Assembly: GCF_900323885.1 (NCBI RefSeq)
Contig: NZ_OOHJ01000030.1
Span: forward strand, 682,001 to 746,000
Length of the DNA stretch: 64,000 bases
Source of the DNA: [Actinomadura] parvosata subsp. kistnae
GTDB taxonomy: Bacteria; Actinomycetota; Actinomycetes; Streptosporangiales; Streptosporangiaceae
Direction: 5' to 3'
The position numbers and the translations under genes are program-made. The notes beneath the pieces are model-generated. The model worked only from the letters and a program-made list of their open reading frames with translations. It was not told the DNA's origin and did no database searches. This document shows positions 37,991 to 56,258 of the stretch, one piece after another; the stretch's first letter is position 1, and every line of letters starts with the position of its first letter.

Positions 37991-38419
37991 TCAGTCAGGC
38001 AGCAACTCGCTGAGCAGTTTCTCCACTCGGGAGCGGATGTCGTCACGGATGAGGCGGACGGTGTCGATGCCTTGGCCTGCCGGGTCGTCGAGCTTCCAGT
38101 CCTCATACCGTTTGCCGGGGAAGATCGGGCAGGCGTCGCCGCAGCCCATGGTGATGACCACGTCGGAGGCCTCGACCGCGTCGACGGTGAGAACCTTGGG
38201 CCGGGCGGCGGTGATGTCGATGCCGGCCTCGGCCATGGCCTCGACGGCGGCCCGGTTGACCTCCTCGGCCGGCGCGGAGCCGGCCGAGCGGACCTCGATC
38301 CGGTCGCCGGCCAGGTGGGTGAGCCAGCCGGCGGCCATCTGGGAGCGTCCGGCGTTGTGGACGCAGACGAACAGGACGGACGGCTTGCCGGCGGGGGTCT
38401 CGGCGGCGTTCTCAGGCAT
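37991..38419 (-). CDS. arsC: Thioredoxin-coupled arsenate reductase ArsC
   Basis: A 142-residue low-molecular-weight-phosphatase-fold arsenate reductase. The P-loop is CVHNAGRS with nucleophile Cys19. The two further redox cysteines lie in MGCGDACP (Cys93 and Cys97), as in the Staphylococcus/Bacillus type that hands electrons from thioredoxin. It converts arsenate to arsenite. It lies 120 bp downstream of the molybdoenzyme gene on the same strand in an arsenic-themed group. Confidence 0.93.
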   Translation of the reverse strand: MPENAAETPAGKPSVLFVCVHNAGRSQMAAGWLTHLAGDRIEVRSAGSAPAEEVNRAAVEAMAEAGIDITAARPKVLTVDAVEASDVVITMGCGDACPIFPGKRYEDWKLDDPAGQGIDTVRLIRDDIRSRVEKLLSELLPD

Positions 38420-38539
38420 GGGCAGGCTCCTTGGCGATGAACAGGCGGCCAGGCTGACGTAGGCCGAGGTCCTGATGCGGGAGACGGCCCTCGCTTCGGA
38501 CGCAGGGAGCGCCGCCGCGCCATCGGGACAGGCAAGAGG

Positions 38540-41038
38540 TCAGGGCACCTTCCGGAGTCTGCAGGCGAAGCACTTGTACGCCTGCTGCCCCGAAAGGTTG
38601 TCATAGAACTGGTCGTCCACCAGCGTGTTGGCCGCCTCGTAGTGGGGATCGCCGAAGATGTCGCCCACTTTCTGCGCAGGTCCGAACGTGTTGGGCAGGA
38701 ATATGGTGTCGGTCCGGATGCCGGGCTCGATGAGGGCGGTGCCGGTCACCGCGCCGCGCGGGCTCTCCACCAGCACCGCGTCGCCGTCGGCGATGCCGTA
38801 CCGGGCGGCGGTGTCGGGATGGATCTGGATCAGGCGGATCCCGTTGAGCTGCTCGCCGGTGTACGTCCAGTGCGTCACTCCGGCGAAGTGCACGACGCTG
38901 GGGCGGCCGGTCATGCCCATCAGCGGATATCGCCGGTGCACCCGCCCGTCTCCGGGGGTGCCGAGCCGGACGGGCCGGGTCAGCGCATGAGGATTGACGG
39001 GGTTGGTGACGAACGCGTCGCCGTAGGTCAGCGTCGGGTGCGCGCCGGTCACCTCTGGGTGGGTGAAGAACACGGGAAGCGCGCCGTGCCCGCTGGGCGC
39101 GAGCCGGCTCTCCAAGGCGGTGGTGAAGATCTCCACCTTGCCGCTGGGGGTGAGGAACCGGTTGCCGGAGCCGAGCGAGCGGGCGGCCTGGTACCAGGAG
39201 GGATGATCGAGGTAGAGGGTGCTCACGCCTGGATGCCCGGTGGCGGGGCAGGGCCAGCGCAGCGGCTCGGTGCGGGCGCGCAGGCGGTCGCGGGTCATGC
39301 CGGCGGCGCTGGGGGTGTTGGCGACGAAGGCGGCCCACAGCTTGTTGTAGTCGGTCCATTCGAGAGGGAGGGCGTCCGTCCAGTACGCCGGCGGGTGCCG
39401 GCGGTCGTTGCGCGCGAGCGCGTGTGCCAGCCCGATGAAGATCTCGGTGTCGGAGCGTGATTCGCCGACTCTGGGCACGGCGGCGTCCTGCCAGCGGATG
39501 GCGCGGTCGTCACGCCGCATGTAGACGCCCTCGAACTCCATGCCGCTGCACACCGGCAGGATGACGTCGGCGTAGTGGGCGGCCTCCTCCATGAACAGCC
39601 CTGTGTAGACGTAGAAGTCCAGCTTCTCTAACGCGCGGCGGACCTTGCCGGTGTTGGCCGAGCTGATGAGGGGGTTGCCTTCGGTCATGACGGCTCGCAG
39701 CCGGTACGGCCGTCCGGTGAGAATGGCGTCGGCGAACGCGTCGGGGCCGACGGGGAGGGCCGGGCCGGGTTCGGGGACTCCGGCCTTCAGCGGAGGCAGG
39801 CCGAGCTCGCCGGGCCAGGTGTTGTGCATGAAGTTGCAGCCGCCGCCCGGCACGCCGACGTTGCCGGTGATCGCGGCCAGCATCGCGATGGCCCGGTAGG
39901 TGTCGAACGCGCCGAGCTGGTGTGAGATCCCGGCGTTGCAGAAGATCGCCGCCGGCTTCGCCGTGGCGTACTCCCTGGCGATCCGGCGGATCGTGGTGGC
40001 CGCGACCCCGGTCACCCCGGCGGCCCACTCCGGTGTGTAACCCTTGCCTGTCACGTGATCGCGGAGCTCCTCGAAGCCCACCACCCACTGGCGGACGAAG
40101 GCCCGGTCGTGCAGCTCCTCGCTGATGACCTCGTGCAGCATGCCGAGGACAAGGGCGAGGTCGGTGTGCGGTTTGGGCGCGATCCAGTCGTCCGCGAGCG
40201 CGCCGGTGGGCGTGCGCCGGGGATCTACCACGACCAGCCGGGCACGGGTGCGCTGCCGGGCCCGCAAGAGGTAGGCGAAGGTGACGGGGTGCGTCTCCGC
40301 CTGGTTGGTGCCGAGCATCAGCAGGTAGCGGGCCGCCCCCAGGTCTTCCCTGCCGGTGGTGGGATCGACGCCGTACCCGTTGGTGAAATTGCCCAGCCCG
40401 AACGTCACCGCGAGCGCGTTGCCGCCCGCATCGTTGCACACGGGGCCGACGTCGGTGTCGTTCGGGCTGCCGAGCAGGCTGAACAGGCGATGTGCCAGCG
40501 CGCCGGCGCCGCGCGGCATGCGCCCTGTGGTGCGGTTGGCGATCGCTCGCGCCTCCCCGCTGTCGCGCAGGTCGAGGAATCGGGTGGCGATGAGGTCGAG
40601 TGCCGTGTCCCAGGTCACGGGCTCGAACCGGGAGTCCGGGTCTCCCTTCGCCCCGCCGGTCCGGCGCAGCGGGCTGGTCAGCCGCAGCGGGTTGTAGGCC
40701 AGTTGCGGCATCATGGAGGCCTTGACGCACAGGTTGCCGTCCTGGACGGGGTCCGCCCGCTCCCCGCGTACATCGATGATCCGGCCGGCCTTCATCCGGA
40801 TCTCCAGCCGGCAGTCGCAGTTGCAGAACTGGCAGGCGCCCGCCACCGTCCTGTCCGGTCGCAGGGCCGCGGAGCCTTCGGTGAAGTCGGGCATCGACGC
40901 GTCGCCCGTCGCGGGCGCGGCCTGCGCGGCGTACGGGACGAGGGTGGGCAGTGCGCCCGCGATCGCGCCCGTCCCGCCCAGGACCGCTCCCCGCAGCACC
41001 GACCTGCGCGAAGGAGGATCGGGTCGTGGCTCGTTCAT
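38540..41038 (-). CDS. Tat-exported molybdopterin oxidoreductase
   Basis: An 832-residue DMSO-reductase-superfamily enzyme. SRRSVLRG at residues 10-17 is a twin-arginine signal. The iron-sulfur motif is C69-x2-C72-x3-C76 with a fourth Cys at 104, so a [4Fe-4S] cluster is expected. MLGTNQAETHPV is a bis-MGD binding segment like that of nitrate reductases, and VGPVCNDAGGNA may give the Mo ligand Cys. No beta subunit gene is adjacent. Nitrate reductase-like or arsenic-oxidoreductase activity are both possible; the neighbours arsC and arsR favour an arsenic role (inference). AAGGA precedes ATG 41038. Confidence 0.88.
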   Translation of the reverse strand: MNEPRPDPPSRRSVLRGAVLGGTGAIAGALPTLVPYAAQAAPATGDASMPDFTEGSAALRPDRTVAGACQFCNCDCRLEIRMKAGRIIDVRGERADPVQDGNLCVKASMMPQLAYNPLRLTSPLRRTGGAKGDPDSRFEPVTWDTALDLIATRFLDLRDSGEARAIANRTTGRMPRGAGALAHRLFSLLGSPNDTDVGPVCNDAGGNALAVTFGLGNFTNGYGVDPTTGREDLGAARYLLMLGTNQAETHPVTFAYLLRARQRTRARLVVVDPRRTPTGALADDWIAPKPHTDLALVLGMLHEVISEELHDRAFVRQWVVGFEELRDHVTGKGYTPEWAAGVTGVAATTIRRIAREYATAKPAAIFCNAGISHQLGAFDTYRAIAMLAAITGNVGVPGGGCNFMHNTWPGELGLPPLKAGVPEPGPALPVGPDAFADAILTGRPYRLRAVMTEGNPLISSANTGKVRRALEKLDFYVYTGLFMEEAAHYADVILPVCSGMEFEGVYMRRDDRAIRWQDAAVPRVGESRSDTEIFIGLAHALARNDRRHPPAYWTDALPLEWTDYNKLWAAFVANTPSAAGMTRDRLRARTEPLRWPCPATGHPGVSTLYLDHPSWYQAARSLGSGNRFLTPSGKVEIFTTALESRLAPSGHGALPVFFTHPEVTGAHPTLTYGDAFVTNPVNPHALTRPVRLGTPGDGRVHRRYPLMGMTGRPSVVHFAGVTHWTYTGEQLNGIRLIQIHPDTAARYGIADGDAVLVESPRGAVTGTALIEPGIRTDTIFLPNTFGPAQKVGDIFGDPHYEAANTLVDDQFYDNLSGQQAYKCFACRLRKVP

Positions 41039-41058
41039 GGCTGTCCTTCGCAGAGGGG

Positions 41059-42189
41059 TCAGCAGTCGCCGCCGCAGCCGCAACTTGGGGCCGACGGATC
41101 AGGAGCGGCGAGGCGGTGCACCGGCAGCGGGTAGGCGGGCTGGAAAGCCCGCTCACCGGCGCGCCGCTCGACCTGCGCGGCGGCGGCCTCGGTGGCCTCC
41201 CGCACCGCGGCGTCGACGGCCTCGTCCAGTTCGCCGGGCTTGCACGCGACGCGCGCGTTGATCCGGGCCTCCGCCTCGGGCAGCGGCCCCGGAGCCGGGC
41301 CGTCCGCCACGGGCGCTCCCCCGGCGCGGGTCAGGCTGAGCCTCGTGAGGACGCCCGGAGCGTGCAGGCTCACCTTGGCGTGGCCGACGGTCCAGCCCAT
41401 CCGAAGGGCGGTCCGGGACAAGTGCTCCAGCAGCGTACGTGCCCACAGGTCGCCGTCGAGACCTTCGTCCGCGCGCACCACGAGGGTCTGATTCAGCCAG
41501 GCGAGCGCGGCCTCGGCCCGGGCGTAACGGTTGTAGTCGATCTCCACGTTGCGCGGCGCGGGCGGCTCGCCCAGCCAGGCGTTCATCAGCTGGTCGAGCC
41601 CTCTGCCCGATCTCGCCGAGTACCCGACCACCGTCGCGGCGGGGTACCGGACATGCAGGTCGTCGAGGGTGTCCCTGATCGTGTCCGGGTCGAGGAGGTC
41701 GATCTTGTTCAGTGCGATGACGTCGGCCTCTTCGAGCTGCTTGCCGAAGAGGTAGGAGAGGTCGGCGTCCCCGTTGTGCGCGGCGGTCTCGCGCAGGGCC
41801 GCGAGCCGCTCCGGATCGACGACCGTCATGAGCGAACCGGCCGTGAAGGTGTCGCCGTAGTACCTCCGGAGCGGCCGCAGGACGGTCGCCTGCAAGTCGG
41901 CGCAGCTGCCCACCGCCTCCGCGAGCAGCGTCTCGACCCGGTGGTTGTCGATCAGCTCCCGCGCCACGTCGAGGAGATCGTCGAAGCGGCAGCAGAAGCA
42001 GCCGCCCGTGACCTCCCCGGCCTCGCTGGAGGCGGATCGGGCCAGCCGGGTGTCGACGAGGTCGCTTCCCTGATCGTTCGTGATCACCGCCACCCGTTCG
42101 CCGTTCGTCCGCAGGCGCCTCGCGACCTCGACGAGCGTGGTGGTCTTGCCGGCTCCGAGAAAGCCGCTGAGCGTCATGAATTCAATCAT
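41059..42189 (-). CDS. CobW/P47K-family GTPase (metal chaperone)
   Basis: A GTPase of about 376 residues. The P-loop is GFLGAGKTTT (residues 9-18), the family metal motif GCFCC has Cys64, 66 and 67, and NKIDLLDPD serves base recognition. The C-terminal domain ends in SCGCGGDC, an extra Cys-rich metal-binding tail. Such G3E GTPases deliver zinc, cobalt or other metals to client enzymes. It lies 20 bp upstream of the molybdoenzyme gene and probably belongs to its operon, so it might serve maturation of that enzyme or metal homeostasis under arsenic stress. Confidence 0.9.
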   Translation of the reverse strand: MIEFMTLSGFLGAGKTTTLVEVARRLRTNGERVAVITNDQGSDLVDTRLARSASSEAGEVTGGCFCCRFDDLLDVARELIDNHRVETLLAEAVGSCADLQATVLRPLRRYYGDTFTAGSLMTVVDPERLAALRETAAHNGDADLSYLFGKQLEEADVIALNKIDLLDPDTIRDTLDDLHVRYPAATVVGYSARSGRGLDQLMNAWLGEPPAPRNVEIDYNRYARAEAALAWLNQTLVVRADEGLDGDLWARTLLEHLSRTALRMGWTVGHAKVSLHAPGVLTRLSLTRAGGAPVADGPAPGPLPEAEARINARVACKPGELDEAVDAAVREATEAAAAQVERRAGERAFQPAYPLPVHRLAAPDPSAPSCGCGGDC

Positions 42190-42281
42190 TTTGCTCGCCT
42201 CACTGACCGATGCTTTTGTCGCACGATAACGACGGACCGAGCGGCCGATCAAGCCGTTCAATTACATGGCCGTCTAATTAG

Positions 42282-42638
42282 CTATCCGGGCAGGAGCACA
42301 GCCGTTCTGGCCTGCCCGTCCAGCAGAATCGACAGCTCGGCCAGCTTTTCCGGCACGGCTCGATAATGGATCCAGGTGCCTTGGCGCCGGCTTTCGATGA
42401 GGCCCGCCTTGCGCAGCACCTTCAGGTGGTGCGAAATCGTGGGCGCCGCCAGGTCGAAGGCCTTCGTCAGGTCGCACACGCACGGCTCCCCGTAAGCGGC
42501 GATCATCGATATCAGCTCAAGTCGTACGGGGTCGCCCAGGGCCTTGAACACCTCGGCGAGACTGCCGGCCTCACGGCTGGTCAGCGGTGGTACGGGGGCG
42601 GAGATCCGGCAGACGGCGGTGACATCAGGCTCCAGCAC
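42282..42638 (-). CDS. arsR: ArsR-family metalloregulator
   Basis: A 118-residue winged-helix repressor. The alpha-3 metal motif reads EPCVCDL with Cys53 and Cys55, the classical As(III)/Sb(III) site. The recognition helix is in APTISHHLKVLRKAGL. It should repress the CobW-molybdoenzyme-arsC unit and possibly the divergent PiT gene until arsenite binds. Start GTG 42638 is tentative. Confidence 0.92.
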   Translation of the reverse strand: MLEPDVTAVCRISAPVPPLTSREAGSLAEVFKALGDPVRLELISMIAAYGEPCVCDLTKAFDLAAPTISHHLKVLRKAGLIESRRQGTWIHYRAVPEKLAELSILLDGQARTAVLLPG

Positions 42639-42740: not shown

Positions 42741-42760
42741 TAATTGCGAGTTAATTGACG
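42741..42760. promoter_or_regulatory. Possible ArsR-type operator (AATTA-rich)
   Basis: TAATTGCGAGTTAATTGACG stands between the divergent arsR and PiT genes. A related AATTA pair (CAATTACATGGCCGTCTAATT at 42259-42279, minus its last base) lies before the CobW gene. These AT-rich, partly symmetric boxes stand out in a 72% G+C region and sit where ArsR would act. Symmetry is imperfect. Confidence 0.3.
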
Positions 42761-42805
42761 CCCCTTTTATCGTCGGCGGGACGTCGAGCGGATCGGAGGC
42801 GGATC

Positions 42806-43870
42806 ATGACCGTCGTGATCTTCATTCTTCTCGTCGGCCTGGCGGCCGCGAACGGCGGCAATGACGTTCCCAAGGGAGTGGCGACGCTCGGCGGAGCAGG
42901 GGTCGCGAGCTACCGCACCGCCGTCGTCTGGGGAACGGTGACCACGCTGGCCGGATCCCTGTGCTCCCTGGCCCTGGCCGACCGGATGACCGCGCTGTTC
43001 TCGAAGGGCATCGTCAGTGCGCCCGCGACCGACCCGTTCGCCTTCGCGGTCCTCCTGGGGACGGCGAGCTGGATCGTGCTCGCCACGTTCCTCCGCCTGC
43101 CGGTCTCGACCACGCACGCCCTGGTCGGCTCGCTGATCGGCGCCGGAGTGCTGCTGGGGAGCTCGTCGGGATCAAGCGTGCACGTCGAAGTGCTGGGCAG
43201 CAAGGTCGTGCTTCCGTTGCTCGCGAGCATCGCGGTCGCGTACGTGTTGTCCGCGGTGCTCAGGCAGGTCGCACGGCGCTTCACCAGACCGGACCGATGC
43301 ACCTGCGCCCAGGCCGAGGCCGAGGTGATCAGCGTGCCCACCGGCGGCGGCGTCCAGGTCGGCACCGTCACCACATGCGCGGTCCACCGCGACCGGACGG
43401 CCCGCGGATTCGACGTGGTGACGGCGGCGCACTGGTTGTCCAGCGGGGCCGCGAGCTTCGCCCGCGGGCTGAACGACACACCGAAGATCGTGGCCATCGG
43501 CACGTTCTCCCTGGTGCCGGCCGGGATGACGATCACGCAGGTGCTCCTGGCCGTCGCCCTGGCCATGGTCGTGGGCTCGCTCGTCGGCGGCCTCCGAGTG
43601 GCGCGGCGGCTGGGCGAGGACGTGGTCAAGATGTCGCACGTGGAGGGGCTGACGGCGAACCTCACCACCGCTGTCCTGGTCGGATTCGGCGCCGGCGCGG
43701 GAATGCCGATGTCCACCACCCAGGTCTCGACGGGCGCGATCGCCGGGATCGCGGGGCGCGACGTCGGACGGCTGAACCGCCGCTCCTTGCGCGACTTCCT
43801 CCTGGCCTGGACGGCGACGCCGCTGATCGCCGCAGGCGTGGCCGCGCTGGCCTTCCTGCTGGTGCGATAG
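42806..43870 (+). CDS. PiT-family inorganic phosphate transporter
   Basis: A permease of about 354 residues with the duplicated PiT signature GGNDVPKG near the N terminus and GLNDTPK in the second half, and about ten helices. A hydrophilic central loop contains CTC and TTC cysteine pairs. PiT carriers move metal-phosphate with protons and are a main entry for arsenate. Its divergence from arsR suggests coordinated phosphate/arsenate handling. ATG 42806 has GGAGG upstream. Confidence 0.92.
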   Translation: MTVVIFILLVGLAAANGGNDVPKGVATLGGAGVASYRTAVVWGTVTTLAGSLCSLALADRMTALFSKGIVSAPATDPFAFAVLLGTASWIVLATFLRLPVSTTHALVGSLIGAGVLLGSSSGSSVHVEVLGSKVVLPLLASIAVAYVLSAVLRQVARRFTRPDRCTCAQAEAEVISVPTGGGVQVGTVTTCAVHRDRTARGFDVVTAAHWLSSGAASFARGLNDTPKIVAIGTFSLVPAGMTITQVLLAVALAMVVGSLVGGLRVARRLGEDVVKMSHVEGLTANLTTAVLVGFGAGAGMPMSTTQVSTGAIAGIAGRDVGRLNRRSLRDFLLAWTATPLIAAGVAALAFLLVR

Positions 43871-44041
43871 CCGACGGCGGGAGGGGTGCCATCAGGCGTC
43901 CTTTCCGCCCGCCCGCGTTATCGCGGAAAATTCGTTGTGCTTCGTGGCGGCCGGCGACATCGACGCCCGCCGAAAGAAACATCGAACAAGTGCCTGCGGG
44001 ATAAAATACCGATCCTCCGAATAATGGCGAAGGGCATTGTC

Positions 44042-44731
44042 ATGGCACCCTTCTACAAAGTATTCGACCTGCCACCGGCCGCCCCGTCCGTCCTGGCCGA
44101 GTTCGCGACCCTTCCGCTGGATCCGTACACCGGCGGGCGGCAGCGCAGCAGACGGTTCTCCCAGTACCGCCTGCGGCTCGACCCCGAGCCTCGTCAGTGG
44201 CGGCTCTCGCTGCTGCCGCATCGGCCGTTCCTCCAGCCGCCCACAGTCAACACCCTGGTCGGCGGCATACCGCGGGAGCTGGAGCCGCTGCGGATCGACC
44301 CGACGCCGCAGATCCACACGGCGGCCCGCCAGATCGGCCTGGACGAAGGTCATGACTGGCACATCAACGTGCACCAGTGCCGGGTGAAGGTCGGCCCGGG
44401 TGTCGCCGGCGTGTCCGTGCCCGAGGGGCCGCACCGCGACGGCCACGACTTCGCGATGCTCGCCGTCTTCGCCCGGCACAACATCTCCGGCGGCGAGAAC
44501 CAGTTGATGCCGCTCGGCGGCGGAGAGCCGTTCTTCCGCGTGACGTTGCAGCCGAACCAGGCTCTGGCCTTCGACGACACGGCCATGTGGCACACGGCGA
44601 CCGACCTGGAGTCGCTCGACGGCGGCTTCGGGCATCGCGACCTGTGGATCGTGGTGTTCAACCGGTGGGACCGCAGGAAGTACGGGGAGGAGTTCGAGGC
44701 CCGGGCCGTCGCGGGAAGAGCCGCCTCATGA
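44042..44731 (+). CDS. 2OG-Fe(II) dioxygenase, amino-acid hydroxylase type
   Basis: A 229-residue enzyme of the 2OG-Fe dioxygenase family that includes the Bacillus L-isoleucine 4-hydroxylase. The iron triad is H131-x-D133 (PHRDGHDF) and H184 (MWHTA); Arg199 (GHRD) should bind 2-oxoglutarate. The family hydroxylates free aliphatic or sulfur amino acids. GAAGGG before ATG 44042 favours this start over ATG 44024. The last codons lie in a 44-bp tandem duplication, and the TGA overlaps an ATG. The following PLP enzyme suggests hydroxylation of a methionine- or homoserine-derived amino acid. Confidence 0.85.
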   Translation: MAPFYKVFDLPPAAPSVLAEFATLPLDPYTGGRQRSRRFSQYRLRLDPEPRQWRLSLLPHRPFLQPPTVNTLVGGIPRELEPLRIDPTPQIHTAARQIGLDEGHDWHINVHQCRVKVGPGVAGVSVPEGPHRDGHDFAMLAVFARHNISGGENQLMPLGGGEPFFRVTLQPNQALAFDDTAMWHTATDLESLDGGFGHRDLWIVVFNRWDRRKYGEEFEARAVAGRAAS

Positions 44732-44795
44732 CGCACCCGCGGACCCGCGCTGTCGCGGGAGGAGCCGCCTCATGACGCACCCGCAGACCCGGGCC
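44708..44795. repeat. 44-bp tandem duplication across a stop/start junction
   Basis: Copy 1 is 44708-44751 and copy 2 is 44752-44795; both begin GTCGCGGGARGAGCCGCCTC and differ at only a few positions. Each copy contains ATG, once at 44728 (overlapping the dioxygenase stop) and once at 44772 (the PLP gene start). The unit is not a multiple of three, so the first ATG no longer reads into the PLP gene. Confidence 0.93.
44728..44775 (+). CDS. 15-codon coupling ORF created by the duplication
   Basis: ATG 44728 opens a frame encoding MTHPRTRAVAGGAAS with its TGA at 44773-44775 overlapping the next ATG (44772). Stops and starts overlap as ATGA at both ends, so ribosomes could pass from the dioxygenase through this mini-ORF into the PLP gene. 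It is a by-product of the 44-bp duplication. Confidence 0.5.
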   Translation: MTHPRTRAVAGGAAS

Positions 44796-45932
44796 GTCCG
44801 GGCGTGGGCGCCGCCACCGCCGACCTCGCGTCCGGTGGCCGTTCCCCTCTACCAGACCTCGACCTTCGCCTTCGAGGACCCCGACGCCTGCGCGGAAGGG
44901 CTGCGTCATCCCGACCGCGGCTACTCGTACACCCGGCATTCCAACCCCACCACCAGGGCCCTGGAGACGGCCGTCGCCGATCTGGAAGGCGGCGTCGCGG
45001 CGCTCGCGACCGCCTCCGGCATGGGAGCGATCAACGCGGTGCTGCTGGCCCTGCTCCGTTCCGGTGACCACCTCATCGTGCAGCGGCGCGTGTACGGCGG
45101 CACCCAGAGCGTGCTCATGCGCCTGGCGGAGCGCTTCGGCGTCGCCGTCACGCGAATCTCGGGTGCGGACGCCGGTGAGCTGGCCGCCGCGGTCAGACCG
45201 GAGACCAGGCTCCTCTACCTGGAGACGATCGCCAATCCGACGACCGAGGTCGCCGACCTGCCCGCGCTGCTGGCGGCGGGCCGGGCGGCCGGGCTGGTCT
45301 GCGTGGTGGACAACACCTTCGCCACCCCGATGTTGTGCCGGCCGATCGAGTACGGCGCGGACGTGGTCGTGCATTCGGCCACCAAGTACCTGGGCGGCCA
45401 CGACGACGTGGTCGCGGGCTTGGCCGTCTTCGCCAGCCGTGACGTGCACGAGCGGGTGTGGCACCTCGCGGCGGACCTGGGTGCGGTGGTGGATCCGTTC
45501 GCGTCCTGGCTGGTTCTGCGCGGGCTGAAGACGCTCGCCCTGCGCGTGGAACGCCACTGCGAGAACGCCGGCCGCCTGGCGCACCTGCTGGAGGGGCATC
45601 CTCGGGTCGCCCACGTGCGCTGGCCGGGGCTGCCCAGCCATCCGAGCCACGCCGTGGCGCGGCGGATCCTCGACGGCTATGGCGGGGTGTTGTCGTTCGA
45701 GGTGGACGGCGACGTGCGCGCGTTCCTCGTCCGGCTGCGCTGCGCGGAGCTGGCGACGTCCCTGGGCGGCCCGCAGACTCTGGTGCTTCATCCGGCGACG
45801 ACCTCGCACCGGGAGCTCGACGAGGCTGAGCTTCGCGCCGCGGGGATCAGCCCTGGGACGCTCCGCGTCTCCGCCGGTCTGGAGCACCATGAGGATCTTC
45901 TGGCCGACTTCGCCCAGGCTCTCAAGGCGTAG
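44772..45932 (+). CDS. Cys/Met-metabolism PLP enzyme (cystathionine gamma-synthase/lyase type)
   Basis: A 386-residue fold-type I trans-sulfuration enzyme. SYTRHSNPTT and ASGMGAINAVL bind the cofactor phosphate, DNTFATPML holds the Asp that contacts the pyridine nitrogen, and HSATKYLGGH carries the PLP Lys. Family reactions include gamma-synthesis, gamma-elimination (methionine lyase) and sulfhydrylation. It is translationally coupled to the 2OG amino-acid hydroxylase. Its end overlaps the convergent regulator gene by 11 bp. Confidence 0.92.
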   Translation: MTHPQTRAVRAWAPPPPTSRPVAVPLYQTSTFAFEDPDACAEGLRHPDRGYSYTRHSNPTTRALETAVADLEGGVAALATASGMGAINAVLLALLRSGDHLIVQRRVYGGTQSVLMRLAERFGVAVTRISGADAGELAAAVRPETRLLYLETIANPTTEVADLPALLAAGRAAGLVCVVDNTFATPMLCRPIEYGADVVVHSATKYLGGHDDVVAGLAVFASRDVHERVWHLAADLGAVVDPFASWLVLRGLKTLALRVERHCENAGRLAHLLEGHPRVAHVRWPGLPSHPSHAVARRILDGYGGVLSFEVDGDVRAFLVRLRCAELATSLGGPQTLVLHPATTSHRELDEAELRAAGISPGTLRVSAGLEHHEDLLADFAQALKA

Positions 45933-47256: not shown

Positions 47257-48374
47257 GGCAGGGTCTGCGCTTCCACGGAGAGCACGGCGGGCAGGTGGGC
47301 GGCGACGGCCTCCCAGGAGTCGCCCTCGTCGGCCGAGGCGAACACCTGGCCCCCGGTCGTGCCGAAGTAGACGCCGCAGGGGTCGAGGGAGTCGACGGTC
47401 ATCGCGCCGCGGAGCACGTTGACGTAGCAGCGGTCCTCCGGAAGGCCCTTGGTGAGCGGCTCCCACTCGTGGCCGCCCGTGCGGCTGCGATAGACCCGCA
47501 GCTCGCCGTCGAGGGGATAGTGCTCCGACTCGCTCTTGATCGGCACGACGTAGACGGTGTCGGGCTCGTGCGCGTGGACCACGATGGGGAAGCCGAAGGC
47601 GGCGGGCAGGTCTCCGCTGATGTCCTCCCAGGAGTCGCCGCCGTCATCGCTACGGTCGACGTCCCAGTGCTTCTGCATGAAGAGCACGTCGGGACGCGAG
47701 GGATGCGTCGCCACCCGGTGCACGCAGTGGCCGACCTCGGCACGGGGGTCCGGCAGGTCCCGCGAGTACAGGCCGCGGTTTCTCGGTTCGAAGGTGATCC
47801 CGCCGTCGTCGGATCGGAACAGGCCCGCGGCGGAGACGGCGGCGAAGATCCGCTCCGGGCGGGTGGGGTCCAGGACGACGGTGTGCAGGCACAGCCCGCC
47901 GCCGCCCGGCTCCCAGGTCTGTGCCGACTCGTGCTCCCGCAGCGCCGTCAGCTCCGTCCAGGTGTGGCCGCCGTCCGACGTGCGGAACAGGGCCGCGTCC
48001 TCGACCCCCGCGTACACCGTGTCCGGGTCGGTCGGGGACGGCTGGAACTGCCACACCCGTGCGAACTCCCAGCGATGCGGGGTGGCGTCGCCCCAGTGCC
48101 AGCGGTGGGTGCCGGGCGGGCTCTGGTAGCCGAAGTCGTTGCCCACCGGACGCCAGGTCTCGCCGCCGTCGTCGGAGCGCTGGACCACCTGGCCGAACCA
48201 CCGCGTCGACTGGGAGGCGTACAACCGTCGCGGGTCGGCGGGCGAGCCCGTGATGTGGTAGATCTCCCAGCCCGGGAAGTGCGGGCCGGTGATGTCCCAC
48301 TGCCGGCGCGCGGCGTCCGAGGTCATCACGAAGGCGCCCTTGCGGGTGCCCACCAGCAGGCGTATCCGGCTCAT
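47253..48374 (-). CDS. BNR/WD40-YVTN-type beta-propeller protein
   Basis: A 373-residue propeller with repeated Asp-box motifs: [39 protein letters not shown] and SADEGDSW. There is no signal peptide. Related sequences are often called exo-alpha-sialidase, but the RIP motif and the catalytic Arg triad of sialidases were not recognised, so an enzyme activity is not claimed. Both ends overlap their neighbours as ATGA, so it is cotranslated with the hydroxylase and MoaD-like genes. Confidence 0.85.
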
Positions 48375-49399
48375 CGGGCTCCTCCCACGGGCGACAGGGC
48401 CTGGGCGTCCAAGGTCCGGGAGAACGTCCGGTCACCTGCTCGCGTGCGCAGGACCACCTGCGTGCTCCCGGCCTCGTCGTGCCGCACCTGAACGGTCCGC
48501 TCCCCCGTCCAGCCCGCGAACCGGAACTCGCCGGCGCCTCGGTGGACGAGCCCGTAGACAGGCTCGCCGTTCACGTACAGGCCGAGCCCGCCGGCGTGCC
48601 GGTCGACACTCGCCGGCACGCCGGGCTGATCCTCCAGGAACGCGCCTTCCGGCTCCTCCCACGAGCGGAACGACTCCGGCAGCGTGAAGCGGCACCGGAG
48701 CCTCTCCAGCGCGTCGCGGCCCAGCGGAGCCGCCTCCGGCTCGAAGATCGTGCTCCGGTGCACGGCCGCGCCGTGGAAGACGGGCGGGAAGAGGGCCAGC
48801 AGCGCGGGCGTGACCAGCGAGTCGATGACGAGGTGGACGCGCACGTCGGTGCCCGTGTTCTCGACCATGTGGCCGCGGGTGAAGTCGGCGTACCAGACGG
48901 TGCCCGGCGGCCAGCAGTGGACCTCGCCGGCGATCGTCAGCGTCGCCTCGGGCATCGTCACGATGGGGACGTGCAGCCGCACCGACCCCCAGGGCAGCCC
49001 GACCTTGGTGTCGCTGTGCAGCGGCGTACGCGCGCCGGGACCGAGCGCCATCAGCCGCACGGACGCCAGTCGCGCCGGGATCGCCTTCAGCACCTCGGCC
49101 AGATGGGGCAGCCGGGCCAGCCACGGGGTGTCGGCGAAGTCCGCCAGGTCCGGTCCCCCCGCGTCCCCCCGATCACCGTCGCCGCCGATGCTCCGCAGCG
49201 GCACGGTCCTCCAGTCGAGCTTCGTGGCGTAGTCGCCCAGCCCGTCGCCCGACACGATGCGGATCTCCTTCCAGGCCGTCGCCTTCACCTGGTCGAGGTC
49301 TTCGAGCAGGCGCGCGATGTCGAAGGAGAGGTCCAGCTGAGCGGTCGGCGGCAGTGTCGCCAGGATGGGCGCCTGTGGCCAGGGATCGACGGCTGACAT
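48371..49399 (-). CDS. Aspartyl/asparaginyl beta-hydroxylase-like 2OG oxygenase
   Basis: A 342-residue protein. Its central domain (about 100-200) has the cupin features of AspH-type oxygenases: HSDTKVG with His128, RGHMVEN with His177 as second iron ligand, and Arg187 in VRVHLVID for 2-oxoglutarate. The C-terminal 140 residues are of unknown fold. It lies 24 bp behind the P450 gene in the RiPP operon. The precursor MRYRH has no Asp or Asn, so Arg, His or a later intermediate may be the target, or a free amino acid (inference). Confidence 0.85.
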
Positions 49400-50583: not shown

Positions 50584-51969
50584 TCAGACGACGAAGACGG
50601 GGCCGCAGCCGCCGTTCTTGACGCGGCGGCTCGGACGCCCGAACGGCGGGCTCTTGCGGACGATGGCCGCGGGCACGGCGGCGCCGACCGCGAAGTAGCC
50701 GTAGTCCACATATGTCGGCTCGCTGACCAGCGAACCGTCCTTGATGATGGAGGCCATGGTCGGGTGTGACCTCGCGATCCGCTGCACCATCCACGCCTCG
50801 CCGGCGGCCACGGCCTCGTCCAGCGCCGCCAGCCAGCGTGCGGAATCGGTCTCGCAGCCGATCGTCACGCCGCGGCCTCCGTACCCGGCGCCGGGCTTGA
50901 GCACCAGGGACTCGCGGTGGTCCGCGCACCACTTCAGCAGGTCCACGCGACGGCCGTCGACGTCGGCCGGGACGTCCTCGATGACCCGCGTCCACGGCAC
51001 GAACGTCGCGAGCACGTCCCGCAGCCGGGCCGGCAGCGTGCCCGCGTCCAGCTCCTCGGAGACGGTGGCGAGAATGGTCTTGTTGAGCGCGATGGCGTCG
51101 TCGAGATCGTCCACGATCACCACGCGTCCCGCGCGGCCCGCCTCCAGGATCGGCGCGAGCAAGGGGTAGTTGCCGATGGGGTCGGGCTCCTCACCGGCGA
51201 CCCGGTAGAGCAGGGAGCACCGTTCGCCCTTGTACGCCACCCCGCCGTCGCCGACGTCGAGGTCCTCGACGGCGGCCGCTTCGGCGCGCAGCCCGTGCCG
51301 CCGCAGCTCCTGGGAGAGACCGTGGCAGTCGTCGCACGGGCCCCCGAGATCCGCCTTGAACTCGATGACCAGGATGCGCGCCGCGGCCGGCGACTCCCCC
51401 GCTTCCACCAGCCGTTCCCGCAGGTAGGCGGCGAGCGTGGCGACCACGTCCGTGCGGTACGCATCCCGCTTGCGCAGGAAGTCGCCGATGATCAGCGACT
51501 GCTCGAAGAGCCGGCCCAGGATGTCGGCATCGGGCATGTAGCCGCAGGAGGAGCCGGCGTTGGGCTCCACCATGGTGAGGTCGTCGTCGTGGATGACCAC
51601 GTCGGGGCGGGCGATGGTCATCCAGCGCGGCCTGCGCGCCGGGTCGACGTAGCCGAACGTCGGCTCCTCCAGCCGCAGCGCCTGCGCCAGCCGGTGCCAG
51701 GATCCGCGCAGGCGGCCGTCGAAGATCAGGTCGAGCGCCTCCTGGAAGGCCCGATGGCAGCGCGCGAAGCGCTCGGCCACCTCTTTCGGCAGCAGCGCGG
51801 GGGGCACCGGCATGCGTTCGCCGACACAGCAGCTCAGGCGGCTGTCGCGGAGCCCGGACAACGCGTCGCCGGCGTCGTCGAAGTATTCCGCCAGCTCGGT
51901 GGCGTGCTCCCGCGCGTACGCCTGCATCTCGGAATTCAGCGCGTTGATTCGCTGCTCTAACGTCTGCAC
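50584..51969 (-). CDS. ATP-grasp ligase
   Basis: A 461-residue protein with the ATP-grasp nucleotide loop SLVLKPGAGYGGRGV in the last third, and NAGSSCGYMPDAD earlier, a layout reminiscent of glutathionylspermidine-synthase or circularly permuted ATP-grasp proteins. Such enzymes activate a carboxylate as acyl phosphate and join it to an amine or thiol. GTG 51969 follows GAGGAGAG; a longer in-frame reading to 52056 would overlap the hairpin. Being between precursor and P450, it could cap, extend or cyclise the peptide (inference). Confidence 0.83.
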   Translation of the reverse strand: MQTLEQRINALNSEMQAYAREHATELAEYFDDAGDALSGLRDSRLSCCVGERMPVPPALLPKEVAERFARCHRAFQEALDLIFDGRLRGSWHRLAQALRLEEPTFGYVDPARRPRWMTIARPDVVIHDDDLTMVEPNAGSSCGYMPDADILGRLFEQSLIIGDFLRKRDAYRTDVVATLAAYLRERLVEAGESPAAARILVIEFKADLGGPCDDCHGLSQELRRHGLRAEAAAVEDLDVGDGGVAYKGERCSLLYRVAGEEPDPIGNYPLLAPILEAGRAGRVVIVDDLDDAIALNKTILATVSEELDAGTLPARLRDVLATFVPWTRVIEDVPADVDGRRVDLLKWCADHRESLVLKPGAGYGGRGVTIGCETDSARWLAALDEAVAAGEAWMVQRIARSHPTMASIIKDGSLVSEPTYVDYGYFAVGAAVPAAIVRKSPPFGRPSRRVKNGGCGPVFVV

Positions 51970-52086: not shown

Positions 52087-52104
52087 TCAGTGGCGGTAAC
52101 GCAT
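52087..52104 (-). CDS. Five-codon RiPP precursor gene, peptide MRYRH (biarylitide type)
   Basis: ATG CGT TAC CGC CAC TGA on the minus strand encodes Met-Arg-Tyr-Arg-His. A perfect Shine-Dalgarno AAGGAGG (52117-52111) stands six bases upstream. Known biarylitide precursors are 18-bp genes such as MRYYH, in which a P450 links Tyr-3 and His-5 and the N-terminal Met-Arg is removed. This peptide fits M-R-Y-x-H at every fixed position, with Arg as variable residue. Its operon contains a P450. No leader peptide is needed. Predicted product: a crosslinked Tyr-Arg-His tripeptide, possibly modified further. Gene too short for normal gene callers. Confidence 0.85.
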   Translation of the reverse strand: MRYRH

Positions 52105-52207: not shown

Positions 52208-53458
52208 TCAGCAGCGGACGCAGCAACGGCCGGCGCCCGCCTCCACGGCCTGCTGGTGGCGTTCTGCCCACAGCTCGTCCACCGCCGGGTCAGGGTGGGT
52301 CCAGTCGTAATGGAAGCCACGGTCGATCAGCTCGACGCCGTCCAGCCAGCCCGATCCGAGGAGGGGCGACCCTTTGTAGAGCAGCAGCCTGGTCTGGCGT
52401 GCGGTGGGGTCCACCGAGGCGGCGATCCCGGTCTCTTCGAGGAAGCTCTCCAGCGCCCGGATCTCCTCCAGGCCGACCCAGGGGGTGAAGGTGATGAACG
52501 AGGGGCGCAGCTCGAAGCCGGTCGCCTGCGCCACCCGGATGGCCTGCTTGATGCCGGGCACGTCGATGCCCTTGTCGAAGATCCGCAGCAGCTTGTCCGA
52601 CGGGAATTCCAGGGCGGAGGTCACCACCCGCAGGCCGAGCTCGGTCATCCGGCCGAGCTCGGCCTCGAACTCGAGGATGTGGTCGAAGCGGGTGGTGATC
52701 TCGAACGTCACCGGCCCCAGCCGCTCGGCCACCGCCTCCATGGCGGTCAGCGCGTGGCGGCGGGTGTTGAAGAACTCGGCGTCGACGAAGACGAAGTGCC
52801 CGGCGCCCTGCGCGGCGAGCTGCGTGGCGTCGGCGAGGATGACGTCCGGGTCGATCGGGATGGCCGTGACCCCGTAGGAGGCGTAGACGGCGCAGTAGCT
52901 GCAGCGGTGATGGCAGCCTCGGGTCGCCTCGATGTTGCCCATCAGCCCGAACTTCGTGGTGTGCGCCGGGTAGTCGGTGAGCGGCGGGAACAGGTCACGG
53001 GCGGGCACCTGCCACTGCCGTGCCGCATGCCGCTTGGGCCTGACCCGCGAGCCCCCGGTGATGACGCCGCCGAGCTCGCCGGGCGTGACCTCGCCACGAG
53101 CGCAGGCGACCAGGTCCGCGGCCATGCCCTCGGGCTCGTCCACGATCACGCCGTCGGTGACGGCCGACAGAGCGGCCGCGTTGAGCCAGGCGTACTGGCC
53201 GAAGGCGAGCACGCGCCGCGCTCCCGCGGCCTTGAACCGGGCGGCCAGGTGCGCGCCCGCTTCGATTCCCTCGAAGGAGGGGATCGAGATCAGCACCAGA
53301 TCGAAGCCGCCGCCGGGAAAGTCGAGGGGAAAGCCGCCGGCGTCCCACCCGGTCACTTCGGCGCCGGCGCCCCGCAGGGAGCCGGCGGCACTCGCGGCCA
53401 GAACCGGCTGCAACTCGGCTTCGAAAGCCGAAACAACTGCGATGGACGGACCGCTCAT
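52208..53458 (-). CDS. Radical SAM enzyme with B12-binding-like N terminus and RCCVRC tail
   Basis: A 416-residue protein. Residues 1-150 form a Rossmann-like, cobalamin-domain-type region. The radical SAM cluster motif is C182-x3-C186-x2-C189 in TRGCHHRCSYC. The protein ends in RCCVRC, three cysteines in the last five residues. Short Cys tails define some known radical SAM groups (as I recall, CUAEP/CCAEP-tail and RCCLKC-tail families; ArsL of arsinothricin biosynthesis may be related). ATG 53458 has AAGGGAGG upstream. It precedes the pentapeptide gene by 103 bp. Peptide or heteroatom chemistry is possible; the substrate is unknown. Confidence 0.85.
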   Translation of the reverse strand: MSGPSIAVVSAFEAELQPVLAASAAGSLRGAGAEVTGWDAGGFPLDFPGGGFDLVLISIPSFEGIEAGAHLAARFKAAGARRVLAFGQYAWLNAAALSAVTDGVIVDEPEGMAADLVACARGEVTPGELGGVITGGSRVRPKRHAARQWQVPARDLFPPLTDYPAHTTKFGLMGNIEATRGCHHRCSYCAVYASYGVTAIPIDPDVILADATQLAAQGAGHFVFVDAEFFNTRRHALTAMEAVAERLGPVTFEITTRFDHILEFEAELGRMTELGLRVVTSALEFPSDKLLRIFDKGIDVPGIKQAIRVAQATGFELRPSFITFTPWVGLEEIRALESFLEETGIAASVDPTARQTRLLLYKGSPLLGSGWLDGVELIDRGFHYDWTHPDPAVDELWAERHQQAVEAGAGRCCVRC

Positions 53459-53576: not shown

Positions 53577-54872
53577 TCAGGATTTGTTGGGCGCGGCCAT
53601 ACCGGCGGAAATGTCATCCGCAACCACGCCCGGCGTCGGCAGCAGCGCCCTCTTCGGCAGCAACGGACCCGCCATCGCCGTGGTGATCAGTGCCATCAAC
53701 ACCATGAGTGTGAACATGGCGCCGTCCAGGACACCGAGGCTGACCCCCACATTGAGAATGATCAGTTCGGTCAGGCCCCGCGTGTTCACGAGGATGGCCA
53801 AGGTCCCCGACTCGCGCCGGCTCATCCCGGAGATCAGGGCGGGCCCGGCCGCGCCCAGCATCTTCCCGGCGCAGGCCACCAGCACGATGGCCGCCAGCTG
53901 CAGGTATTCACCGCCGGTCAGGGCACTGATGTCGACGCTCAGCCCGGTGACGATGAAGAACACCGGCATGAGGATGAGGCTGACGTTGGCGAGCGGCACC
54001 CTCAGCCCTTGCCGCAGCACCTCGGCGGGCTCGCGCGGCATGGCGACCCCGAAGGCGAATGCCCCGAAGATGGGATGGATCCCGATCAGCGTGGTGGCGT
54101 ACGACGAGATGAGCACGCCGGCGCACAGCACCACCACCAGGAACGGCGAGACGCGCTCCTGAGCCCACCGGCCGATCACCGCCTTCAGCAACGGACGTAC
54201 CAGCAGGGCCATCACCAGGACGTACGCGGCGGCGAGGCCCGCCGTCCGCAGGAAGCCGGCGAGATCCCCCGACGTGGCGAGTGCCGCCACGAGTGCCAGC
54301 AGACACCAGGCCAGGACGTCGTCGATCGCGGCGCTCGCCAGCGCCAGGGCTCCGGCCCGGGTGAACATGAGCCAGTTGTCGGCCAGGATCCTGGCCAGCA
54401 CGGGGAACGCCGTGATCGACATCGCGGTCCCGAGGAAGAGGGCGAACGCGGCCAGCGACACGCGTTCGCCGTTGACCACCGCGTGGTGCTCGTACAGCAC
54501 GAGACCCAGGGCCACGCCCAGGCCGAAGGACAGGGCGATCGAGGACAGGGAGACCGCGGCGGCCGTCTTCTTCTGACTGCTGATCAGCTTGTGCTCGAAC
54601 TCCCAGCCCACCCCGAACATGAAGAACAGCAGCCCTACCTGGGCGATCATCTTCAGGTGCGGGCGCGCCTCGTCCGGGAAGATCACCCGCGTGGGGTCGC
54701 CCGGCAGCAGGCCGAGCAGGCTCGGACCGAGCGCGATGCCCGCGAGGATCTCGCCGATGACGGTGGGCTGGCGGAACCTGGTGACCAGCCGTCCCAGGAC
54801 GGCTCCGACGACGAGGATCAGCGCGACGTCGGCGATGACCACGGCGCCGACGAGTTCACTGCGGTCGTGCAT
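53577..54872 (-). CDS. Cation:proton antiporter (CPA2/Kef type)
   Basis: A 431-residue membrane protein with about 12-13 helices. The family core motif is FGVGWEFEHKL after helix 3, and the ion site lies around AIDDVLAWCLLA, with two consecutive Asp as in electrogenic CPA2 antiporters. No C-terminal TrkA-N domain is present. It lies 27 bp downstream of the MFS exporter gene on the same strand. Such antiporters are common in antibiotic clusters, where they may support export or self-protection. Confidence 0.9.
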   Translation of the reverse strand: MHDRSELVGAVVIADVALILVVGAVLGRLVTRFRQPTVIGEILAGIALGPSLLGLLPGDPTRVIFPDEARPHLKMIAQVGLLFFMFGVGWEFEHKLISSQKKTAAAVSLSSIALSFGLGVALGLVLYEHHAVVNGERVSLAAFALFLGTAMSITAFPVLARILADNWLMFTRAGALALASAAIDDVLAWCLLALVAALATSGDLAGFLRTAGLAAAYVLVMALLVRPLLKAVIGRWAQERVSPFLVVVLCAGVLISSYATTLIGIHPIFGAFAFGVAMPREPAEVLRQGLRVPLANVSLILMPVFFIVTGLSVDISALTGGEYLQLAAIVLVACAGKMLGAAGPALISGMSRRESGTLAILVNTRGLTELIILNVGVSLGVLDGAMFTLMVLMALITTAMAGPLLPKRALLPTPGVVADDISAGMAAPNKS

Positions 54873-54899: not shown

Positions 54900-56258
54900 T
54901 TACCTGGTCTCCGTGGGACGAGGGGTACGTACGAGGCTCGGGTCGTCCGTCTCTGTCCGGACCCTCGTCGCGGGCCGCGCATTGCCGGTGCCCGAGCAGG
55001 AGCACGGGGCGCCGGCCACCTGCTTGAGCGGCACCGCCAGGGCCCGCCCGACGAGGACGACCCCGAGCACCGCGGCGACACCGCCGCTCAGTGCTATCAC
55101 CGTGGCGACCGGTACGGCCAGTGCCACCGCCCCGGACACGGCCGGCCCGATCCCCTGCACGGTCATCAGCCCGGTGCTGCGCAGCCCGAAGGCGAGGCCG
55201 CGCTTGTCCTCCGGGACGGAGTCCACGAACCGCAGCTCAAGCCCGAGATCGTAGGCCAGGCCGATGCCGCTGAGCACGAGGAACGCGCCGATGACCGCCA
55301 CCGGCAGGTCGAAGAGCAGCGCGACCAGCGGCAGCCCCGCGACGAGGGGCAACCACAAGGTGAGCCGATCGCGCAACGTGACGTCGGTGACCTTCCCGAA
55401 CGCCAGGTTGCTCACCATCATGCCGACCGCCAGGCACGCGAGCAGCACGCCGGCGACGGAGGCCGGATGGCCGTTCTCGGCGGTGTACGGCACGATCAGC
55501 GCCTCCGCGCCCGTCACCAGCCCCGGCGGGATCCATTTGGCGAGCAGCAGCGTGAGCACGGACGAGGTCCCGAGCAGCTGGAAGTTCTGCCGCCAGCTGT
55601 CCGCGAACGTGGACAGCCTGCGGCCGGACGGCGGGGCGCCGGCCGGTGCGGGTGCGGCAGGCAGGTCGGGCAGCCCGATCCGGATCATCAGCACGCTGCT
55701 GAGGTGGAAGGCGGCGCTGAGCACGATGGTCGTCTCCGCGCCGAACGCGGCGACGCTGAAACCCGCCAGCGCGTTGCCGACGAGCTGGGCGGCCAGTGGC
55801 GCGCTGCACCACAACGCCCGTCCTTTGACGTAGTCGTCGCCGGCGAGCACCTCGGCCACCAAGCGGCTCGACGCGCCCTGGTAGAGCGGGGTCACCAGGG
55901 CGACCATCGCGACGAGGATCAGGCTCACGGCCACCGGTGGCCGCCCCAGCCCGATGACGAGCCCGACGCTCGCGTCGATGGCGAACAACGTCGTGAGCAG
56001 GGGCCTGGGACGCAGCCGGTCGGCGAGCGTGCCGAGCAGGCTGGAGCCGAGCATCTGCGGCACGAACGTGATGCTGTACGCGACGGCCGACCAGAGAGGC
56101 GATCCGGTGATGGCGAAGACCGAGACCGCCAGAGCGAGCGCCCGGACCGAGTCGCCGGTGACGGCGAGCGAACGGGTCAGGAAGAGCATGCGGAATGCGG
56201 GTTGCGCGAGCACGCGCCGATACGTCGAACGCTGCAGCCGATTACTGACCTCTGCCAT
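54900..56258 (-). CDS. MFS transporter, probable exporter of the cluster product
   Basis: A 452-residue, 12-helix carrier. Loop 2/3 reads GTLADRLRPRPL, and the sequence around AVSVFAITGSPLWSAVAYS resembles actinomycete drug-export MFS proteins. The hydrophilic C terminus contains a short APCSCSGTG segment. It is downstream of the StrR-type regulator gene with 110 bp between them and is the natural candidate for secretion of the finished peptide. Confidence 0.88.
   Translation of the reverse strand: MAEVSNRLQRSTYRRVLAQPAFRMLFLTRSLAVTGDSVRALALAVSVFAITGSPLWSAVAYSITFVPQMLGSSLLGTLADRLRPRPLLTTLFAIDASVGLVIGLGRPPVAVSLILVAMVALVTPLYQGASSRLVAEVLAGDDYVKGRALWCSAPLAAQLVGNALAGFSVAAFGAETTIVLSAAFHLSSVLMIRIGLPDLPAAPAPAGAPPSGRRLSTFADSWRQNFQLLGTSSVLTLLLAKWIPPGLVTGAEALIVPYTAENGHPASVAGVLLACLAVGMMVSNLAFGKVTDVTLRDRLTLWLPLVAGLPLVALLFDLPVAVIGAFLVLSGIGLAYDLGLELRFVDSVPEDKRGLAFGLRSTGLMTVQGIGPAVSGAVALAVPVATVIALSGGVAAVLGVVLVGRALAVPLKQVAGAPCSCSGTGNARPATRVRTETDDPSLVRTPRPTETR

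Follow-up and report, generated by a model that had tools for sequence, protein, structure and literature searches.

A 64,000-nucleotide stretch of the genome of the soil actinobacterium [Actinomadura] parvosata subsp. kistnae (contig NZ_OOHJ01000030.1, positions 682,001 to 746,000; the window) contained a gene for an ArsL-like radical S-adenosylmethionine (SAM) enzyme directly beside a bytA-like gene for a biarylitide-type pentapeptide. The open reading frame of the enzyme (arsL for short; 53458..52208, minus strand) started at 53458, ended with a stop codon at 52208-52210, and encoded 416 amino acids with an RCCVRC tail. The pentapeptide gene ATGCGTTACCGCCACTGA (52104..52087, minus strand) consisted of 18 nt, lay 103 nt past the arsL stop codon on the same strand, and encoded MRYRH in five codons. 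The location of an ArsL relative beside the pentapeptide gene, a cytochrome P450 and an ATP-grasp ligase suggests a natural product in which a peptide bears an arsenic amino acid. We tentatively propose that the ArsL-type enzyme, the biarylitide pathway and ligation by the ATP-grasp enzyme would together yield an arsenic-carrying biarylitide, which we hold at a little short of an even chance.

The initial annotation had pointed to a CxxxCxxC cluster and to three cysteines in the last five residues, and both were borne out: the cluster is CHHRCSYC at residues 182-189, and the protein ends in GAGRCCVRC with Cys at positions 412, 413, and 416. At a Cys frequency of about 1%, three Cys among the final five residues are improbable for one protein. 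The tail RCC-[VIL]-[KR]-C terminated all 11 ArsL-type homologues compared, down to about 35% identity. These were the two Nonomuraea copies (the window genome, G000, and Nonomuraea solani, G175, of the same genus and carrying the same locus), two copies from metagenome-assembled genomes (MAGs), those of G071, Lentzea, and Phycicoccus, and four plasmid copies, from Pseudomonas amygdali (annotated arsL), Alicyclobacillus, Priestia, and Pantoea. Among the 73 positions invariant across the 11 proteins were the Arg and the three Cys of the tail (R411, C412, C413, and C416). T320S was the sole change common to both Nonomuraea copies among the positions fixed in the other nine, and the dN/dS between these two copies was 0.22. 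The gene was present as a single copy in the 13.6 Mb window genome.

The best NCBIfam match of the protein was NF040542 (rSAM_RCCLKC, arsinothricin biosynthesis radical SAM protein ArsL), with residues 7-416 aligned to positions 2-423 of the 423-position profile at 410.3 bits. The second-best model, the CUAEP-tail family NF040546, reached 234 bits against its cut-off of 500, the tail being RCCVRC and not CUAEP or CCAEP, and the remaining families scored 40 bits or less. In the tree, the 11 ArsL-type proteins, including the annotated ArsL, were separated from four CUAEP-type proteins at 100/100 support, with one change. The two outcomes named as contrary in the initial annotation were looked for: the tail was strictly conserved, and the best family was the tail-defined ArsL family, not a housekeeping one. 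Since the curated equivalog cut-off of NF040542 (450 bits) was missed, we class the protein as divergent and ArsL-like, with an RCCxxC tail, short of a certified ArsL; the related actinobacterial matches L007, L008, L009, and L011 scored 405-447 bits on the same model. The NF040542 match, the conservation of the tail, the grouping with ArsL, and the single changed fixed position therefore make ArsL-type carbon-arsenic (C-As) chemistry the best reading of the enzyme.

Of the genes tested previously, arsL alone was needed for the formation of hydroxyarsinothricin (AST-OH) from As(III), for which aminocarboxypropyl transfer from SAM was proposed (PMC8552651), and a later review attributed this transfer to the radical SAM enzyme (PMC12159101). 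The window enzyme would catalyze the same reaction, transferring the aminocarboxypropyl group from SAM to As(III), and a probable role of the RCCVRC tail is to bind As(III) or to deliver it. The strict conservation of RCCxxC makes As(III) handling by ArsL open to mutational study. In the structure model built with six sequences, the predicted local distance difference test score (pLDDT) was 74.6, and that of the tail was 36, at which the placement of the tail relative to the active site is unreadable. The cobalamin-domain-like N terminus of the initial annotation stood as a fold only: the modeled N-terminal domain has the cobalamin-domain-like Rossmann fold seen in radical SAM enzymes of the B12 type and matched AprD4, MgmA, TsrM, and OxsB. 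Its neighbors in VIA-align were B12-type radical SAM enzymes and AprD4, a likeness of fold and not of cobalamin use. The cobalamin motif DxHxxG was absent from residues 1-180 in all homologues compared, and cobalamin use is not supported by the sequence, although some cobalamin radical SAM enzymes do without this motif.

The location of the radical SAM gene next to a pentapeptide gene, as first annotated, also held. The pentapeptide pattern gave this one match across the 64 kb and none in shuffled sequences, and the gene was preceded by AAGGAGG. A block of about 40 nt spanning its start and ribosome-binding site was identical in N. solani, with flanks that differed by indels. Biarylitides arise from five-residue precursors that are cross-linked by a P450 (PMC13417212; PMC12951456), and MRYRH carries the aromatic residues at positions 3 and 5 that mark such precursors. 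On the minus strand throughout, arsL was followed by the pentapeptide gene and then by the genes of a circularly permuted ATP-grasp ligase, a P450, and an Asp/Asn hydroxylase. The P450 (49424..50566) is of the biarylitide type: its best PDB match was 9jv0, at 444 bits, followed at about 239 bits by a group with 8spc and 8spp among its members, which we take to be P450Blt of biarylitide biosynthesis; other P450s reached at most 109 bits. The Asp/Asn beta-hydroxylase-like protein (48371..49399) matched PF05118 with 55 bits. A scan for sigma-70-type promoters gave chance-level matches only.

The ATP-grasp ligase (50584..51969), a putative amide-bond former, was assigned its start at GTG 51969, where the conserved alignment begins. 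The Pfam search gave a weak match to CP_ATPgrasp_1 and found no PGM1 domain, and profile comparison weakly matched the GspS-like 3n6x, the ligase Cp1B (9cjn), and homoglutathione synthetase. Cp1B belongs to the ATP-grasp ligases and has been investigated in the biosynthesis of E-64 (PMC12568646). The window ligase was 86% identical to the N. solani copy and 52-53% identical to a copy in G127. In the proposed pathway, MRYRH would be translated, Tyr3 and His5 would be linked by the P450, and the leader would be removed; the ATP-grasp ligase would then form the bond between peptide and arsenic amino acid, and the resulting arsenic-carrying biarylitide may act as a "Trojan horse" like bialaphos. 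That an arsinothricin-type residue is ligated to the P450-cross-linked YRH tripeptide by this circularly permuted enzyme is possible, with a chance somewhat below even.

Comparison of arsL loci showed that the position beside arsL is usually occupied by a putative amide-forming enzyme. N. solani showed the same order of arsL, the pentapeptide gene, and their neighbors to either side, including the two genes upstream of arsL on the same strand, a CPA2-type cation/proton antiporter (53577..54872, minus; TIGR00932, below cut-off) and a major facilitator superfamily exporter (54900..56258, minus; TIGR00900, below cut-off). In all five non-Nonomuraea actinobacterial loci compared (G071, Lentzea, Phycicoccus, and both MAGs), arsL was directly followed by a FemAB-like gene (L037 9451-10659, L005 11295-12509, and L039 8975-10186, matching PF04339; L006 9713-10978 and L040 10842-12044, homologues of the matched copies). 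To our knowledge, a FemAB-like partner of arsL has not been reported before. A FemAB-like homologue was found in neither G000 nor G175 at 1e-5. The arsL loci of Alicyclobacillus, Priestia, and Pantoea contained ATP-grasp genes related to L-amino-acid ligases (L045 3442-4674, L046 3656-4879, and L047 8299-9615), which suggests that arsinothricin peptides may be widespread. From the FemAB-like slot and these ATP-grasp genes, it follows that arsL often adjoins a putative amide-forming enzyme; in Nonomuraea, the slot is taken by the pentapeptide gene and its ATP-grasp ligase. If the arsenic-carrying biarylitide is real, arsL across bacteria would be a module whose amide-forming partner is exchangeable, being an L-amino-acid ligase, a FemAB-like protein, or a ligase of ribosomally synthesized and post-translationally modified peptides (RiPPs); taking the two together, we would sooner doubt this than assert it.

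The window also contained arsenic genes at about 38-44 kb, about 8-15 kb from arsL. These encoded an ArsC-type arsenate reductase (approximately 38060..38500, minus; TIGR02691, 78 bits, below cut-off), a molybdopterin oxidoreductase with a Tat-like signal (38540..41083, minus; PF00384), which reached no known subfamily cut-off, a CobW-like GTPase (41059..42261, minus; true start probably near 42192), an ArsR-type regulator (42282..42638, minus), and a PiT-type phosphate, possibly arsenate, transporter (42755..43870, plus). In N. solani, the genes of the oxidoreductase, CobW, ArsR, and PiT were in unchanged order. In G071 (L037), homologues of the window arsenic genes, among them the oxidoreductase (71%), ArsR, and PiT (61%), directly adjoined arsL and its FemAB-like neighbor, and a PiT gene was also present in the Priestia arsL locus. 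The early guess of an arsenic-containing product gained from this arrangement, in which arsenic genes of the same kinds stand directly beside arsL, and from the family itself, which is the C-As bond former of arsinothricin (PMC8552651).

Alignment of the CobW-like GTPase with the arsL-linked GTPases from Pantoea, Priestia, Alicyclobacillus, Phycicoccus, and G071 covered about 90% of its length, at 36-50% identity. As a partner specific to ArsL it was weakened: it is enriched but not specific, being found in 16 of 338 family genomes and in three of the five ArsL genomes (enrichment p 0.0008), so that 13 of the 16 had no comparable match in the ArsL search. The window copy ends in the Cys-rich sequence SCGCGGDC, a tail that none of the other intact proteins in the comparison has. 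The stretch from the arsenic genes to the peptide cluster contained a 2-oxoglutarate-Fe dioxygenase (43886-44731) and a pyridoxal phosphate enzyme of the Met/Cys type, similar to methionine gamma-lyase (44772-45932), both of which were also present in N. solani. An ArsM-ArsN1 fusion was encoded elsewhere on the same contig, far from the window (L086 6618-7847), with a second, partial copy (L087 6802-8004).

Several results, together with the score below the ArsL cut-off, weigh against an arsenic-carrying biarylitide. G127 contained the pentapeptide MRYIH with the ATP-grasp ligase (52%), the P450 (44%), and the hydroxylase (54%) without arsL, and in this second cluster (L072 4970-10989) a TIGR03975 radical SAM C-methyltransferase replaced arsL. 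Since G127 holds the peptide set without arsL, the substrate of the ligase does not have to contain arsenic, and the tie of the ligase to ArsL was weakened. Among 394 genomes sampled class-wide for each gene, arsL (E 1e-70) and the ATP-grasp gene (E 1e-50) were found only in the window genome, so the pairing of arsL with the pentapeptide, seen in two related species only, may be a single event. A tblastn search of the window beyond 36 kb did not find arsQ or arsM, which form an operon with arsL, and the FemAB-like proteins may be self-resistance acetyltransferases and not peptide formers. The AlphaFold model of the ATP-grasp ligase, built from two sequences, was unusable (pLDDT 34).

The main rival is that two neighboring pathways are adjacent but separate. 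The ArsL-like enzyme would then form hydroxyarsinothricin in free form, which an ArsM encoded elsewhere might or might not methylate, and the pentapeptide cluster would form an arsenic-free biarylitide capped by the ATP-grasp ligase with another acid. The arsL-free module of G127 agrees with this, as does the ArsM-ArsN1 fusion, and the distance of the arsenic genes from arsL, together with the occurrence of CobW in genomes without a comparable ArsL match, points to an arsenic function independent of the peptide. It is countered by the conservation in two species of same-strand neighbors separated by only 103 nt, and by the occupation of a slot that elsewhere holds a conserved arsL partner absent from both Nonomuraea genomes. 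Separate pathways thus come close to an even chance, and on current evidence they and the ligated hybrid are equally likely.

Two further explanations concern the enzyme itself. A change of substrate, in which the aminocarboxypropyl group is moved onto the peptide, for example onto His5, as Dph1-Dph2 does on a histidine of EF2, would suit the adjoining gene of a His-containing peptide, and the formation of an aminocarboxypropyl radical for histidine modification has precedent in diphthamide synthesis (PMC11048331). It is very improbable: the enzyme retains the tail and essentially every ArsL-invariant position, and its closest homologues in other genera (74-75%) lack a pentapeptide gene of this kind in their vicinity. 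A radical SAM reaction unrelated to arsenic, with the tail ligating an auxiliary cluster or shuttling sulfur, agrees with the score below the curated cut-off; the conservation of tail and clade, and the recurrence of arsenic-gene neighbors at homologous loci in three phyla, make it unlikely.

Few arsenic natural products are known, and phosphinothricin is made as a peptide conjugate in bialaphos. Arsinothricin-type amino acids may commonly be made as peptide conjugates in the same way. With the arsL relative at the pentapeptide cluster, arsinothricin chemistry would reach into a RiPP of an actinomycete, and an arsenic-carrying biarylitide, if true, would give a candidate function for the biarylitides, which have shown no activity in assays so far (PMC13417212).

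Compared with ArsL of Burkholderia gladioli (NF040542; PMC8552651), the window protein shares the full-length alignment, the CX3CX2C cluster, the RCCxxC at the extreme C terminus, and nearby arsenic genes. It differs in being only about 35-37% identical to the proteobacterial and bacillar members, in its score under the curated cut-off, in its tail (RCCVRC, not RCCLKC), and in its cluster, where the pentapeptide, P450, and ATP-grasp set adjoins in place of arsQ and arsM. The CUAEP/CCAEP-tail proteins (NF040546) are a sister group of similar architecture with a Cys/Sec tail, but they differ in the tail and the lower score and form the separate clade described above. With the biarylitides of the bytA/bytO type (PMC13417212; PMC12951456), the window shares a five-codon MRYxH gene with Tyr3 and His5, a P450 of the same sequence group, and a hydroxylase, as in the MRYVH cluster of Saccharothrix (PMC13417212), but it has Arg at position 4, a circularly permuted ATP-grasp ligase, and an ArsL-like neighbor. 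The main text of the biarylitide survey mentions neither MRYRH nor radical SAM enzymes nor arsenic (PMC13417212). The Bisenarsan pathway of Streptomyces is also organoarsenic secondary metabolism in actinomycetes, but its C-As bond is believed to form independently of SAM-dependent enzymes (PMC12159101). Pgm1, another ATP-grasp enzyme, occurs in 47 biarylitide clusters (PMC13417212); as in the window, an ATP-grasp amide ligase adjoins the pentapeptide gene, and, as proposed for the window, a ribosomal peptide is combined with a non-proteinogenic amino acid. In the window enzyme, Pfam found no PGM1 domain but a weak relation to the circularly permuted ATP-grasp types.
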